Assembly (NCBI RefSeq): GCF_013149275.1
Contig: NZ_JABGNA010000003.1
Span: 248,001 to 312,000, forward strand
Reading direction: 5' to 3'
Length of the DNA stretch: 64,000 bases
Origin: Mucilaginibacter sp. SG564
Lineage (GTDB): Bacteria > Bacteroidota > Bacteroidia > Sphingobacteriales > Sphingobacteriaceae
Positions within the stretch are counted from its first letter, which is position 1. Every line of letters begins with the position of its first letter. Both the position numbers and the translations under genes were made by a program. Below are positions 1,811 to 59,224 of the stretch, one piece after another. The notes beneath the pieces were generated by a model that was not told the DNA's origin, made no database searches, and was given only the letters and a program-made list of their open reading frames with translations.

Positions 1811-3307
1811 TTAAATATCTAATTCATGCAGTCGGTGCATCGAATCCATGAGGTCGCGGTACAGCTTTTTAAATATTGGAAACAATTTGCTGTACCGCTC
1901 ATGGTTTTGCGCATTGGGCTCAATAACCGTTTGGTTATCAACATGTGTAAGCTGATCATAACTTTCGGGATGCAGCACCTGCGCAGCCAGGTAAATGGCT
2001 CCAACCGCCGACGCGTCTTCGGGCTGCAGCACTACCAACCTTTTCCCGGTAATATCTGCCAGGATCTGCGTCCAGGTAGCAGAACTTACAAAACCGCCGC
2101 TAATGTTCACCTGAGTAATATTTACCGAGGCATCCTCTACGGTTTTCAATACATCATACAAAGCAAAACAAACCCCTTCCAGTGCCGCCCTTAAAAAATG
2201 GGCCCGGGTGTGGGCCGGTTTTATATTCAAAAACCCGCCGCTGGTTTGAGTATCCCAAAGCGGGGCACGCTCGCCGTATAAATAAGGCAAAAAGATGAGT
2301 CCGTCACTTGCTGCTGGGATGGTATCGATGGTCGCGAATAATTCGTCATAATCTGCCGGTGTCAGTTTTTCCTTTTGCAAGAAATTTTGCAGTAGCCAGT
2401 TTATAGCGATACCTCCGTTGTTTACCGCACCACCGCATACAAAAGTATCCTGGTTAACCAGGTAATTGAAAGTCATCCCATCAAAATTGTATACCGGTTT
2501 GGGACTGGTGATACGCACCGCTCCGCTGGTACCAATAGTAAGCGCCGCAATACCCGGCCCGGTAGTATGGCTGCCCAGATTGGCGCAGCAACCATCACTC
2601 GCGCCGATCACAAAATGAGTTTGTTGCGAGATATTCAGCAAGGCGGCTGTATCCGGGTTAAGGTTATTACGGTGATAAGTGGTGTTTCTGGGGATTGATA
2701 ATTTGGCAGCAGAAATACCGGCCAGCTTACAGGCTTCTACACTCCAATCCAGCTTCAAGATATCAAACAAGCCGGTAGCCGAGGCAATGGAATAATCGAT
2801 CTCAAAACTTCCAAACAGTTTAAACCAGATAAACTCCTTGATCGATATAAATTGAGCTGCCTGTATAAACAGCTCGGGCTTATTGGTACGCAGCCAGATG
2901 AGCTTACACAAGGGCGACATGGCATGTATTGGTGTACCCGTAATGCGATATATTTCTGCACCCTGCACTGAATGTCTTAGCTCCTGCGCGATATCCTCGC
3001 TCCGCGCATCGGCCCAGGTGATCATCGGCAACAGCGGCGTTCCTGTTTCATCTACCAGTATAATACTGTGCATGGCGCTGCTAAAACTCACGGTAACCGG
3101 TGCATAGCCCACCCGCGCGGTGATATCCTGCATACATTTTACAAAGGCATGCCATATCAACAGCGGATCCTGCTCACTGTAACCCGGCTCCGGATTGTTG
3201 ATAGGGTAATGATTTTGAACCACCCCCAATGCCTCGCCAGTCAGGGTGAGGGCCACAGCTTTGGTGCTACCCGTGCCTATATCGATACCTAAAATATATG
3301 GTTTCAT
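1811..3307 (-). CDS. FGGY-family carbohydrate kinase, gluconokinase-like
   Basis: A 498-residue kinase that would phosphorylate a free sugar or sugar acid with ATP in the cytoplasm. The N-terminus LGIDIGTGSTKAVAL is the first phosphate-binding motif of FGGY kinases, MHSIILVD and ITWADARS follow as in gluconokinases, and GTSGAVR and the GGF motif lie in the C-terminal half. I chose the ATG at 3307 because the family starts just before this motif; an upstream in-frame ATG at 3337 would add ten unrelated residues. No gluconate permease or dehydrogenase is adjacent, so the substrate (gluconate, xylulose or another) is uncertain. It is divergent from the rhamnose operon, separated by a repeat-rich gap. 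Confidence 0.8.
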   Translation of the reverse strand: MKPYILGIDIGTGSTKAVALTLTGEALGVVQNHYPINNPEPGYSEQDPLLIWHAFVKCMQDITARVGYAPVTVSFSSAMHSIILVDETGTPLLPMITWADARSEDIAQELRHSVQGAEIYRITGTPIHAMSPLCKLIWLRTNKPELFIQAAQFISIKEFIWFKLFGSFEIDYSIASATGLFDILKLDWSVEACKLAGISAAKLSIPRNTTYHRNNLNPDTAALLNISQQTHFVIGASDGCCANLGSHTTGPGIAALTIGTSGAVRITSPKPVYNFDGMTFNYLVNQDTFVCGGAVNNGGIAINWLLQNFLQKEKLTPADYDELFATIDTIPAASDGLIFLPYLYGERAPLWDTQTSGGFLNIKPAHTRAHFLRAALEGVCFALYDVLKTVEDASVNITQVNISGGFVSSATWTQILADITGKRLVVLQPEDASAVGAIYLAAQVLHPESYDQLTHVDNQTVIEPNAQNHERYSKLFPIFKKLYRDLMDSMHRLHELDI

Positions 3308-3907
3308 ATGTGTGCCTAATTTAGGATAAAAACACAAGGGACGAAAGGATAAAAGACAAACAGATTCCTACTTACGTTCCTATATTGGGAAGCTCAAATG
3401 CTAAAAAGTGGGTTTACACAATTCAGGCGATTTATCATTAAAAATCAATTCAAATTACTCATTATCAATAATATAATGCAATGTAAACCATAAAAAAATG
3501 TAAACCATGTAAACCCACTTTTTAACAGAAATAGTCCCCATAGCATGAAGTATAGTTTACTGACCCGATCATCGCTACGCTCGATCATGCTCTCTTCGCC
3601 TGCGGCGGAAAGAGGGGATTTAAAAATTAAAAGAATTGTCATCCTGAGGAACGAAGGATCTGTTATTGAATATGCTAGGAGCAGAATAGATGCTTCACTC
3701 CGTTCAGCATGACAAATGTTTTCTTTACCCTCTTTCCGCCGCAGGCGAAGAGAGGGTCGCCCAGCAAAGCGCAGGCGGGGTGAGTCGATATTCATCCTTA
3801 TACTCCCTCTCCTTTGGAGAGGGTTGGCTGAGGTTTCCATGACAGTACATGACAGTTTCGGCCTATTTATTCCCTAAATTAGCTTTACCAATATAACCTG
3901 ATAGTGT
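3308..3907. other. Intergenic gap with nested palindromic repeat
   Basis: This 600-bp divergent gap contains no convincing gene. Its centre (about 3577-3790) is a nested inverted repeat. The outer arms carry CTCTTCGCCTGCGGCGG near 3591 and its reverse complement near 3733. The inner arms are the dispersed GTCATCCTGAGGAACG and CGTTCAGCATGAC type hairpin found at many places in this window. The last 60 bp hold the upstream region of rhaT, with a weak TAGCTTTA resembling a -7 element. Confidence 0.6.
3577..3790. repeat. Nested dispersed palindromic repeat
   Basis: Two hairpin repeats are nested. The outer arms are GC-rich, and the inner one is the CATGCTGAAC/CCTGAGGAACG type that recurs elsewhere in the window. 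Reading frames crossing it give the low-complexity translations typical of such repeats, not protein. Confidence 0.65.
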
Positions 3908-12005: not shown

Positions 12006-12168
12006 AGTTTAAAATGTGGTTTTGGTTAGAGCCATAAAACTAATTTATTTTTATAAACCCTGCACATCAAAACCGGGCATGAGAGGTGATGTAGGGGTGG
12101 TGCGAGAATCAAGAAGTTAGCGTCAAGAGATAAGACATTAACAATTGCCGGGGCTACCCGGCCCAAAA

Positions 12169-12425
12169 ACTTTTTAAACCTTAAATTTTAACATTTTTCT
12201 GCTCAAAAACGGGGTAAAAACAGCCGAAAAATGATCGAAAAACATCGATTTTAACACCTTTTAACAAATTCCAAGGCGGTTTTAGCCTGTTTTTGAAACT
12301 TTAAAAAGTGTTATTTTATTGACTATCAAATAACTTCATAAAAATAAGCCCATTTTCGGGCTATTTTCTCCTTTAACTAAACAGCCCGGTTCTCCTTTTT
12401 AATCAGGAAAACCGGGCTGTTTTTA
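12169..12425 (+). repeat. Duplicated curved-DNA / RNA-like element, copy A
   Basis: A 141-bp core (12169-12309) is bounded by the inverted repeat ACTTTTTAAA / TTTAAAAAGT. Inside are TTTTAACA boxes at 12186, 12249 and 12259, the last two 10 bp apart. Between the first and second boxes lie a T5 tract at 12194 and A5 tracts at 12205, 12216, 12227 and 12238, an exact 11-bp period. The core is followed by a hairpin at about 12341-12366 and a strong ACAGCCCGGTT hairpin ending in a T-run at 12421. Copy B at 46624 has the same order and the same 141-bp core length. The plus strand is given because of the T-run; direction is inference. Confidence 0.7.
12381..12425 (+). terminator. Intrinsic terminator of element A
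   Basis: ACAGCCCGGTT (12381-12391) pairs with AACCGGGCTGT (12410-12420), followed by five T. No plus-strand gene ends nearby, so it most simply terminates an RNA that begins inside the element. On the minus strand it could also end the cytochrome c transcript, though its T-tract there is poor. Confidence 0.65.
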
Positions 12426-12495
12426 TATACAAATATACGCATTTAAGTCCGAAGTTTTAAGCCTTAAAGTGCCGGTTAAGGGGCTAAAATTTAAT

Positions 12496-45857: not shown

Positions 45858-46598
45858 CTATTTCAGCGCTTTGGCAATAGCCTGCTCGGTAACCGTTGCC
45901 ATAACTTTATAACCTGCAGCATTGGGGTGTACGCCATCTGTAGTAAGCTCCGGCTTTTGCCCGTTGCGCTCATCAACCATGGGTGTAAAATAATCCAGCA
46001 GGGTCAGGTTATTTTCGGTGGCGTAGGCTTTGATGAGCTTGTTGAGTGCGATGATCTTGCCAGCCGGTTCAATGCCTTTACGCCATGGATAATCAAATAC
46101 AGGCAGGTAAGCGCATAGTATCACCTTGATATGGTGCAGTTTAGCCAGCTCGGTCATGGAGCGAATGTTGTTCATGATATACTCATTTGTCAGGTGGCCA
46201 TAGTTGGAGGCGATATCATTACTACCGGCAAGTATGATCACCGCTTTAGGCTTCAGACCGATCACATCCTGCTGAAAGCGCAGTAATAACTGTCCTGAGA
46301 TCTGTCCGCTCACACCCCTGTCCAGATAGGATTTTTCCTTAAAAAACTCAGGCACAGTGGTTTTCCACCGCTCAAATATGGAGCTCCCTAAAAATACCAC
46401 CCTATTTTCGCCGGGTTTGGGGGCGCCTACCTCTTTGTTTTCCCGGGCATAGCGAGACAACGCGGCCCAGTCATCCCGCAAATCCTCTTTGGCAACAGCC
46501 GGCTTATTTTTTCCAGTATCGGGGCTGCCTTGCTGCGCGTAACCGGCAGAGGCGATCAATAATCCGGCGAATAATAATAGGGTAAGTTTTGTATTCAT
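45858..46598 (-). CDS. SGNH/GDSL-family esterase, secreted
   Basis: A 246-residue hydrolase with a signal peptide (FAGLLIASAGYAQ). The GDSL block reads FLGSSIFERW, with GSS in place of GDS and the nucleophile at S73; block II glycine is in RGVSGQ near 98; block III GSND gives N127; and block V DGVHPNAAGY gives D221 and H224. It would remove acyl groups such as acetate from carbohydrate in the periplasm. Copy B of the duplicated element begins only 25 bp upstream of its start codon. Confidence 0.82.
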   Translation of the reverse strand: MNTKLTLLLFAGLLIASAGYAQQGSPDTGKNKPAVAKEDLRDDWAALSRYARENKEVGAPKPGENRVVFLGSSIFERWKTTVPEFFKEKSYLDRGVSGQISGQLLLRFQQDVIGLKPKAVIILAGSNDIASNYGHLTNEYIMNNIRSMTELAKLHHIKVILCAYLPVFDYPWRKGIEPAGKIIALNKLIKAYATENNLTLLDYFTPMVDERNGQKPELTTDGVHPNAAGYKVMATVTEQAIAKALK

Positions 46599-46623
46599 TT
46601 TGGATATATATATCGTAGCAAAA

Positions 46624-46878
46624 ACTTTTTAAAGGTTGAATTTTAACAATTTTCGACTCAAAATCGGGCAAAAACAGGTGAAAAACAGATCAAAAATCAC
46701 TCAAAATCATCGATTTTAACACTTTTTAACAAATTTTTTACACGTTTTGAAAACTTTAAAAAGTATTAATTTCCTATATATCAAATTACGACATACCAAA
46801 TGATCAGTTTTTGGATTGTTTTTTCTGTTAACCAAACAGCCCGGTTCTCTGCTAAAAAAGAGAACCGGGCTGTGGTTT
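46624..46878 (+). repeat. Duplicated curved-DNA / RNA-like element, copy B
   Basis: The core 46624-46764 is 141 bp, the same length as copy A, with the same bounding ACTTTTTAAA / TTTAAAAAGT. TTTTAACA boxes start at 46641, 46714 and 46724. A/T tracts start at 46650, 46660, 46670, 46681, 46692 and 46703, each separated from the next by exactly 6 bp. Copy B has one more tract than copy A, and the distance between the first and second TTTTAACA boxes is correspondingly 10 bp longer (73 against 63). A 15-bp perfect hairpin follows at 46836-46873. Confidence 0.7.
46836..46873 (+). terminator. 15-bp hairpin closing element B
   Basis: ACAGCCCGGTTCTCT at 46836-46850 pairs perfectly with AGAGAACCGGGCTGT at 46859-46873. 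The following bases GGTTTAT are only weakly T-rich. It matches the hairpin of copy A and lies between two divergent genes. Confidence 0.6.
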
Positions 46879-47052
46879 ATACAATATACGAAAAATTGTT
46901 GAATATGCCGGTGGCAAAATTCATTGAACGCAGGTAAGTAGTGTGCGATAAGAGATGCTTCACCTCATCCAATCAATTATTTTTAAATTAACAATTCCTT
47001 TACAGACCGGGGTTTACTTTGTGGCAACTTTATTATAAAAACCCTATTACCC

Positions 47053-48345
47053 ATGAAAAAAAATTTATTAACCCTTTTTACTTTTAGTGCTATAGCCCTT
47101 AGTGCCTGCAAAAAAGATCATAAGGTAAATATAGCTCCACCATACCCGGATATGGCCGAAGCAGCCGATCCTGCTGTTCTGATGACCACTGCCGATGGTG
47201 TAAAAGTATATAACGGTGGCTTTGGCTCGGCCATAGCTCCGGACCCTAAAGACGCTAATGTTTTTTACCTGCTTACCGATCGCGGACCTAATGCTGCGGG
47301 TTCAACAACCAACGCCATCATATTTGGCAAAGCCGATTTTACTCCCGAGATAGGCAAGTTCAGGCTAAAAGATGGTAAACTGGTATTGGAGCAAACCATT
47401 CAGCTTAAAAATGCTGCCGGCCAACCCCTGAACGGTTTACCCAACCCTATCGACCAGGGCGGCACCGGCGAAATCGCTTTTGATCTGAACGGAAACCAGA
47501 TTGCACCAAATGCCGACGGGATCGACTCAGAAGGCATGGTTTTAGCCTCCGACGGTACTTTCTGGATCAGTGATGAATACGGTCCTCACATTGTACATTT
47601 TGATGCCTCAGGTAAAACCATTGAGCGTATAAACCCATTCGGAACAGGTACCGGCGGTCGTAAAATTCCCCTGGTGTTTGCCAAACGTAAACCCAACCGT
47701 GGCATGGAAGGCCTCGCCATTACGCCCGATGGCAAAACATTGGTGGGCATGATGCAATCGCCGATGCTTAACCGCAATAAAACGGCGGTTGCCAATTCAA
47801 CCATCCTGCGTATCCTTACTTTTGATATCGCTTCGGGTGCTACCAAACAGTATGCCTATGTGATGGATAATGTATCCCTTACGGGCGTAAGCGATATAGT
47901 GGCGGTTAATGCCACTACCTTTTTAACCGTTGAGCGCGATGGCTTGTATGGCGGCGCGCCAAGTAATCCGGCTACATTTAAAAAAATATTCAAGATAAGC
48001 CTTACCGGCGCTACCGATATATCAGATGACGCCAATGGCGCTAATGGCAAACTTTACGGGGGCAAAACCGTAGAGGAGCTGAATGACCAGGCCGGTTTGC
48101 AGGGTGCAGGCATTACCCCGGTATCTAAAACCCTGGTGCTGGATCTGCTGAAAGATCTGCCAACCGTTTACCCGCATGATAAGGCCGAAGGTTTGGCCCT
48201 GCTACCGGGCAATATCCTGGCCATCTCCAACGATGACGACTTTGGTGTACTGGATAATGGCAAGGGCGGTTTCGCTGCTAAAATACTGCCCGCTACCAAC
48301 ACGGTTGATCATAACCGCATCTATTTTGTAAAGATAAAGCTATAA
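47053..48345 (+). CDS. Phytase-like esterase lipoprotein
   Basis: A 430-residue lipoprotein (lipobox LSAC, Cys19). The mature part matches the esterase-like activity of phytase domain (PF13449-type beta-propeller): LTDRGPNAAGSTTNAIIFG, DSEGMVLASDGTFWISDEYGP (cited by WISDEYGP), RGMEGLAITPDGKTLVGMMQS (cited by RGMEGLAITPDG), and DDDFGVLDNGKGG. It may release phosphate from organic phosphoesters at the cell surface; activity in this family is established for few members. A strong terminator follows at 48385-48417. Confidence 0.8.
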   Translation: MKKNLLTLFTFSAIALSACKKDHKVNIAPPYPDMAEAADPAVLMTTADGVKVYNGGFGSAIAPDPKDANVFYLLTDRGPNAAGSTTNAIIFGKADFTPEIGKFRLKDGKLVLEQTIQLKNAAGQPLNGLPNPIDQGGTGEIAFDLNGNQIAPNADGIDSEGMVLASDGTFWISDEYGPHIVHFDASGKTIERINPFGTGTGGRKIPLVFAKRKPNRGMEGLAITPDGKTLVGMMQSPMLNRNKTAVANSTILRILTFDIASGATKQYAYVMDNVSLTGVSDIVAVNATTFLTVERDGLYGGAPSNPATFKKIFKISLTGATDISDDANGANGKLYGGKTVEELNDQAGLQGAGITPVSKTLVLDLLKDLPTVYPHDKAEGLALLPGNILAISNDDDFGVLDNGKGGFAAKILPATNTVDHNRIYFVKIKL

Positions 48346-56211: not shown

Positions 56212-56282
56212 TTTTCCTACAAGGGCTCGAACCTCAATCTTCAGAGCCAGAATCTGACGTGTTACCATTACACCATAGGAAA
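56212..56282 (-). tRNA. tRNA-Gln (CTG)
   Basis: A 71-nt cloverleaf on the minus strand. Acceptor TTTCCTA pairs with TAGGAAA (discriminator A), the D arm is GTG-TAATGGTAA-CAC, the anticodon arm is TCAGA-TTCTGGC-TCTGA with anticodon CTG, and the T arm has GG-TTCGAGC-CC. The U1-A72 pair is the usual glutamine identity feature. No CCA is encoded. Confidence 0.9.
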
Positions 56283-59104: not shown

Positions 59105-59155
59105 AACAAAACAAAAAAGATCTTAGCAAATTGCTAAGATCTTTTTTGTTTTGTT
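59105..59155 (-). terminator. 25-bp perfect hairpin at the 3' end of tRNA-Gln
   Basis: 59105-59129 and 59131-59155 are exact reverse complements around one base; the centre is TTAGCAA-A-TTGCTAA and the outer part is AACAAAACAAAAAAGATC. It overlaps the last base of the tRNA gene and works as a bidirectional terminator, with long A and T tracts on either strand. Confidence 0.75.
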
Positions 59156-59224
59156 TTCCCGCATGGGCTCGAACCACGATCGTCTGAACCAGAATCAGAA
59201 GTGCTACCATTACACCACAGGAAA
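59154..59224 (-). tRNA. tRNA-Gln (CTG), second copy
   Basis: A 71-nt cloverleaf on the minus strand. Acceptor TTTCCTG pairs with CGGGAAA (one G-U), the D arm is GTG-TAATGGTAG-CAC, the anticodon arm is TCTGA-TTCTGGT-TCAGA with anticodon CTG, and the T arm is CGTGG-TTCGAGC-CCATG. No CCA is encoded. It differs from the first copy at several stem positions but has the same anticodon. Confidence 0.9.

Follow-up and report, generated by a model that had tools for sequence, protein, structure and literature searches.

Two similar stretches of non-coding DNA, copies A and B, raise the question of what a run of helix-phased A/T tracts with a hairpin beside it does between genes. Both lie in the window, the whole 64,000-nucleotide stretch of a Mucilaginibacter genome that we analyzed. 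Copy B sits between a GDSL-type acylhydrolase gene (45858-46598, minus strand) and a divergent phytase-like gene (47053-48345, plus strand). The whole element (46622-46893, plus strand, approximately 272 bp) matched positions 2 to 263 of 264 of the family profile, and its conserved columns extend approximately 20 bp further to the right than this match. Its core of phased A/T tracts (46624-46764, plus strand, 141 bp) starts with the end box ACTTTTTAAA (46624-46633, plus strand) and ends with TTTAAAAAGT, the reverse complement of ACTTTTTAAA (46755-46764, minus strand). Within the core, TTTTAACA boxes start at 46641, 46714, and 46724, with spacings of 73 and 10 bp, giving a single first box (46641-46648, plus strand) and a double box, TTTTAACACTTTTTAACA (46714-46731, plus strand). 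A hairpin with a 15-bp stem (46836-46873, plus strand) begins approximately 80 bp past the right box, and further on there is an imperfect promoter-like -7 region on the minus strand with one A missing (46882-46889).

Consistent with the original prediction, copy A (12167-12441, plus strand, by family profile match) was found to share the 141-bp core length (12169-12309, plus strand), the ends, the boxes, and the hairpin (12381-12420, plus strand). Its TTTTAACA boxes start at 12186, 12249, and 12259, with the double box at 12249-12266, and the predicted difference in the distance from the first to the second box, 63 bp here (followed by 10 bp) against 73 bp in copy B, was confirmed. A promoter-like -7 box, TATATTTG, lies on the minus strand of copy A at 12430-12437, its TTG partner at 20 bp being unmatched. 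The end boxes and the hairpin of copy B were recovered independently as inverted repeats, and the window has 13 instances of TTTTAACA, compared with 6.67 ± 2.71 in shuffles. The window also holds two tRNA genes (56212-56282 and 59154-59224, minus strand), which alone reached the Rfam threshold in it; nothing at the element came near that threshold.

Copies A and B belong to a family of approximately 100 dispersed intergenic copies in this genome (6.83 Mb; G000 below). The unit is non-coding and approximately 290 bases long, the 141-base run of helix-phased A/T tracts being followed by the hairpin. A blastn search with copy B, in which the best 40 of 155 candidates were scored, returned at least 40 places with E values of 1.1e-26 or better, the query itself included; the others were 70 to 81% identical to it. 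The double box with up to three mismatches was found at 96 places in the genome, 58 of them exact, compared with 2 for the reversed control. The end-box pair with a free gap of 106 to 126 bp was found at 97 and 96 places on the two strands, compared with 0 for the reversed pattern.

Across 149 genomes of the genus, four had the double box (up to two mismatches) at 83, 104, 114, and 128 places, and the rest at 0 to 7. The end-box pair with the same gap range gave, on the two strands, 97/96 matches in G000, 97/93 in G066, 91/94 in G070, 112/110 in G144, and 15/16 in G042, with 1 to 3 on both strands in G053, G060, G085, G103, G104, G145, and G020. Six more genomes had one single-strand match each, which we took as chance, the reversed control giving 0 or 1 per genome. 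A covariance model also detected full-length copies in G042, G085, G103, and G053, the counts there being lower bounds because only 13 candidates per genome were scored. Three close species therefore carry approximately 90 to 110 copies each, and at least four more distant species carry fewer; the carriers include M. lappiensis ATCC BAA-1855 and Mucilaginibacter sp. OK268 (G144). Since the carriers are a minority of the species among these genomes, chromosomes of this type can do without the element. No match to the element was found by blastn in phage and plasmid collections. The end-box pattern did match 120 stretches of viral contigs, but with zero profile matches among them, so we rejected these as copies and took them as chance matches in AT-rich DNA. 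A literature search, judged mainly from search listings, found no description of this element.

To describe the core, we read 137 elements in full, 76 in G000 and 61 in G144, leaving out three G000 loci that had no profile match. The core was 140 to 142 bp long in 129 of them, 131 to 132 bp in 7, and 143 bp in 1. With lengths from 126 to 146 bp admitted, 81 of the 88 end-box pairs among the matches listed for five genomes fell at 139 to 142 bp, compared with 29 of the 120 viral-contig matches. Over 129 cores, A4/T4 maxima appeared at approximately 18, 27.5, 37.5, 48.5, 59, 70, 80.5, 90.5, 101, 111.5, and 122.5 bp from the left end, i.e., 11 A/T tracts per core at a mean step of 10.45 bp, with end boxes on both sides. 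The 6-bp gap between tracts that had been called exact is thus an approximate one. The first TTTTAACA box lies 17 bp from the left end in 124 of the 137 elements. A wedge model predicted strong intrinsic curvature of the core, with an end-to-end to contour ratio of 0.626 compared with 0.861 ± 0.077 in dinucleotide shuffles; 46% of the elements fell below the first percentile of the shuffles and none below their minimum. A subfamily (L022, L038, L039, L103, L105, L184, and others) has extra TTTAAC-type boxes before the double box, in the left half, replacing A-tracts.

The double box could be placed, with up to two mismatches, in 135 of the 137 elements. Its register, counted from the left end, was 70 in 1 element, 79 to 80 in 75, and 89 to 91 in 59, with no values in between, and the distance to the right end mostly compensated for this (about 51 or 41 bp). 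Box distances thus cluster by helical turn, as the original prediction required, and since only whole-turn registers occur, it is well supported that helical phase is under selection, as it would be if a protein spanned the element. What did not stand is the idea that the length of the element as a rule changes in whole turns: the box shifts instead within a constant 141-bp frame, cores of 131 to 132 bp making up only 7 of the 137. Likewise, copy B does have one more A-tract to the left of its double box, which sits one turn further to the right (register 90, against 80 in copy A), but it has no overall gain of 10 bp.

The same shift was seen between orthologs. Two cross-assigned pairs, with flanks 68 to 70% identical, were removed before the comparison of G000 with G144, and one G144 locus, L185, is the partner of two neighboring G000 copies. 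Among 40 orthologous pairs, 38 were readable, of which 31 held the register within 1 bp and 7 differed by 10 to 12 bp. Core lengths agreed within 2 bp in five of the shifted pairs and were 132 and 141 bp in the other two. Copy B belongs to the shifted pairs, its ortholog having register 80. Such one-turn shifts indicate that the phase argument is borne out in evolution, mainly through movement of the box within a frame of fixed length.

Single copies are also conserved in place. Over 42 orthologous pairs, two doubtful ones included, identity was 98.9% in the most conserved columns, 94.3% in the next class, and 53 to 60% in the two most variable classes, while random paralogs within one genome showed 98.5%, 90%, and 33 to 45% in the corresponding classes. 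The variable columns have diverged far, retaining a trace of common descent, while the conserved ones have not. This difference between column classes indicates that single copies are under purifying selection and are not neutral relics. Loss of the element seems possible, with the boxes decaying afterwards. By eye, the copy-B site in G066 (L188) and G070 (L189) has a decayed left end of the element beside an extra gene that reads like a glycosyltransferase, and in G085 and G042 the site is a short gap with no element.

The hairpin starts 79 to 81 bp from the right box in 109 of 122 elements. It had been argued that the hairpin of copy B, lying between divergent genes, can belong to neither of them. 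The genes are indeed divergent, but the hairpin is not peculiar to this site: it is part of the element in every context, with a strong fold in 86 to 94% of the copies per gene context (87% of the 31 divergent copies). T-runs after it did not differ by gene context. In 39 aligned elements the hairpin co-varies: 10 of its 14 pairs had changes on both sides, with 48 such cells compared with 14.1 in shuffles. RNAalifold found no RNA structure besides this hairpin and the never-varying end boxes.

With the element (E) read left to right, the 137 copies fell into the contexts -E- (65), -E+ (31), +E+ (22), and +E- (19). The excess of -E- over +E+ copies is significant (p 4e-6) and stays so when only one member of each orthologous pair is counted (47:19, p 8e-4). 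All four contexts are occupied, convergent included, and we rejected the operator of a single regulon as a candidate, since the copies are not confined to positions upstream of gene starts and 19 of the 137 lie between convergent genes. A recurrent gene family beside the copies was also rejected, the neighboring open reading frames of 40 tested copies forming groups of four loci at most; the neighbors of copies A and B and the other proteins read by eye had no common theme. In 38 of the 41 "+E" copies, the left end of the element lies 0 to 31 bp past a stop codon.

Along the chromosome, close pairs are scarcer than random in two of three genomes. Gaps below 20 kb numbered 7 in G066 (22.4 expected; 0 of 2,000 random sets as low) and 13 in G144 (22.8 expected, p 0.004); G000 had 9 (12.8 expected), which was not significant (p 0.097). 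Overall spacing in G066 and G144 was not more even than expected by chance, the CV not being below random. Contrary to the general scarcity of close pairs, L156 in G144 has two elements (2908-3183 and 3622-3893) in opposite orientation approximately 700 bp apart. On contig 1 of G066, 14 of 18 elements counted by hand are on the minus strand, and then 23 of 34 on the plus strand, the change being near the sign change of the sampled GC skew at about 1.1 to 1.4 Mb; this change may be a consequence of the bias in gene orientation. A gap at the replication terminus was considered and rejected, as the largest gap on this contig, approximately 383 kb, is unremarkable by a rough hand estimate. To the right of many copies lie repeats of other families: a dispersed intergenic repeat of approximately 270 bp in either orientation (e.g., at L010, L023, L039, and L157) and another of approximately 90 bp with two small palindromes (at L126, L140, L153, L181, and others), both at varying distances.

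The rigid length, phase, and ends, together with the presence in every gene context and the copy-by-copy selection, are best explained if the element is a site that a protein complex wraps or bends. We tentatively favor the view, which could quite possibly be right, that the element is a dispersed chromosomal protein-wrapping site whose copies act as architectural or topological nodes, with the hairpin setting it apart from transcription. A dyad-symmetric or filament-forming DNA-binding complex would recognize the inverted end boxes and touch the DNA at every helical turn, so that all 141 bp are wrapped or bent, and the hairpin would block passage of RNA polymerase through the wrapped core. 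The copies would then be fixed nodes, averaging one per 60 to 80 kb, and not the operators of one regulon. A bolder form of this proposal seems rather doubtful, namely, that the element is the bacterial counterpart of a positioned nucleosome, with a clade-specific protein wrapping exactly 141 bp, or a turn less, at approximately 100 intergenic stations, the contact word being exchanged between lineages and the hairpin insulating the site from transcription. Plasmid parC/ParR iteron-like sites and LrpC-type proteins offer precedents for contact words once per turn and the wrapping of phased A-tracts. The element has repeated contact words at each helical turn as well, but it occurs in approximately 100 chromosomal copies, with end boxes and a hairpin, and no such gene is linked to it. 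To our knowledge, the known dispersed chromosomal sites are mostly short words or short palindromes. Here, approximately 100 copies keep the same strict length, with a helical ladder between inverted ends, across species-level divergence while an inner box moves only by whole turns, and the old question of defined DNA-wrapping stations in bacteria becomes directly testable.

Wrapping alone leaves the orientation bias (65 versus 22) and the promoter-like sequence at the right end unaccounted for, and these two features keep alive a reading of the element as a dispersed regulatory or RNA cassette. Past the hairpin there is a conserved [CT]AAANNTA, and 35 of 123 elements have CAA at a distance of exactly 20 bp from it; in minus-strand reading, the two make up TTG-N20-TANNTTTR, which we take to be the Bacteroidota promoter pattern. 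Its strict form was found in 41 of 137 elements and is most frequent where the flanking genes diverge (16 of 31). Copies A and B match the sequence only in part. Such a promoter would fire inward, giving a transcript that starts with the hairpin and then either ends there (approximately 50 nt) or continues across the core to the gene on the left; the core would be the operator or enhancer for a regulator. This direction is opposite to that of the plus-strand transcript ending at 46875 suggested by the original prediction, for which no promoter of the Bacteroidota pattern was seen on the plus strand by eye. In 96 of 137 copies, the left gene reads outward from the element, as a cassette would have it, but the other 41 have no left gene to drive. 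Moreover, left genes have a promoter-like box of their own between the element and the start at about the control rate (23% of 77 versus 16% of 106 control genes), the neighbors of copies A and B and the other proteins read by eye lack a shared theme, the RNA structure is limited to the hairpin and invariant end boxes, and a 141-bp ladder at 10.45 bp is unnecessary for an RNA. We therefore regard the cassette as somewhat unlikely. An origin as a non-autonomous, MITE-like mobile element, the copies being its relics, would account for dispersed copies with inverted boxes and for the high copy number in few species only; the scarcity of close pairs could reflect target immunity, and the position of "+E" copies just past stop codons would also fit. 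Yet orthologs that have diverged at variable columns are still 94 to 99% identical at conserved ones, at odds with neutral drift, and the right box is not terminal but is followed by a conserved unit of approximately 130 bp, so that terminal inverted repeats do not stand at the ends of the element itself. The lack of profile matches in viral contigs and of blastn matches in phage and plasmid collections, and the finding that neighboring open reading frames of the 40 tested copies form groups of four loci at most, also speak against it. For target-site duplications and empty sites, the copy-B site was the one compared, and its flanks are too diverged to read. A mobile element thus covers the dispersal, and perhaps the origin, but not the present conservation, and we find it quite improbable as an account of the family.

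The remaining alternative is a strong DNA gyrase site or a BIME-2-like gyrase-binding repeat, with gyrase wrapping the 141-bp core. According to the available text of PMC6379681, the E. coli gyrase motif from Topo-Seq is symmetric and 130 bp long, a 36-bp central part for cleavage being enclosed by two 47-bp flanks with a period of 10.75 bp, and it resembles nucleosome patterns; well-phased sequences bind gyrase best, and E. coli BIME-2, proposed to bind gyrase, carry gyrase sites. The element is alike in its length of 141 bp, its inverted ends and overall symmetry, and the helical period of its A/T-rich stretches (10.45 to 10.8 bp). However, its tracts continue unbroken through the center (59, 70, and 80.5), where the motif, as given in that portion of PMC6379681, has its cleavage part. 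The gyrase motif is also degenerate and the enzyme general, whereas the element has specific, nearly invariant end boxes, a fixed length, and a hairpin at 80 bp, and occurs in some species only, which makes gyrase an improbable partner. REP and BIME elements resemble the element in having many dispersed intergenic copies with a palindrome, but they are defined in the accessible part of PMC3733652 as 20- to 40-bp palindromes tagged GTAG or CGTC; the main part of the element is a 141-bp helical ladder, and neither tag is in its consensus. A-tract clusters of bacterial nucleoids, thought to aid nucleoid packing, are likewise in phase with the helix, but, in the text available from PMC3940949, they form a diffuse genome-wide signal, unlike a defined, sequence-bounded unit of fixed length in approximately 100 copies.

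The wrapping-site reading gains a point of comparison from other lineages. Copies in G085 and G042 are mostly 139 to 141 bp long, with a few shorter ones, and those in G103 are 140 to 141 bp long with phased tracts, mostly without TTTTAACA. In G053, three copies with clear end boxes have cores of 133 to 134 bp, in which ACC/CCT words recur with an 11.0-bp period (power 4.47 versus a shuffle mean maximum of 1.33, 0 of 300 as high), in a test that took in a poor fourth match. Length and phase, as judged from this comparison of sequences, outlast the interior words. If the contact word was indeed swapped between A/T tracts with TTTTAACA and ACC/CCT, with length and phase kept, this would point to co-evolution of a protein and its word. 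With its different repeated word in a comparable frame, the G053 lineage is a natural control that could help to identify the binding protein by comparison. At the loci L396 (G060) and L404 (G104), which have paired end boxes 132 to 133 bp apart with phased tracts, no hairpin was found to follow the right box in the orientation that was examined.
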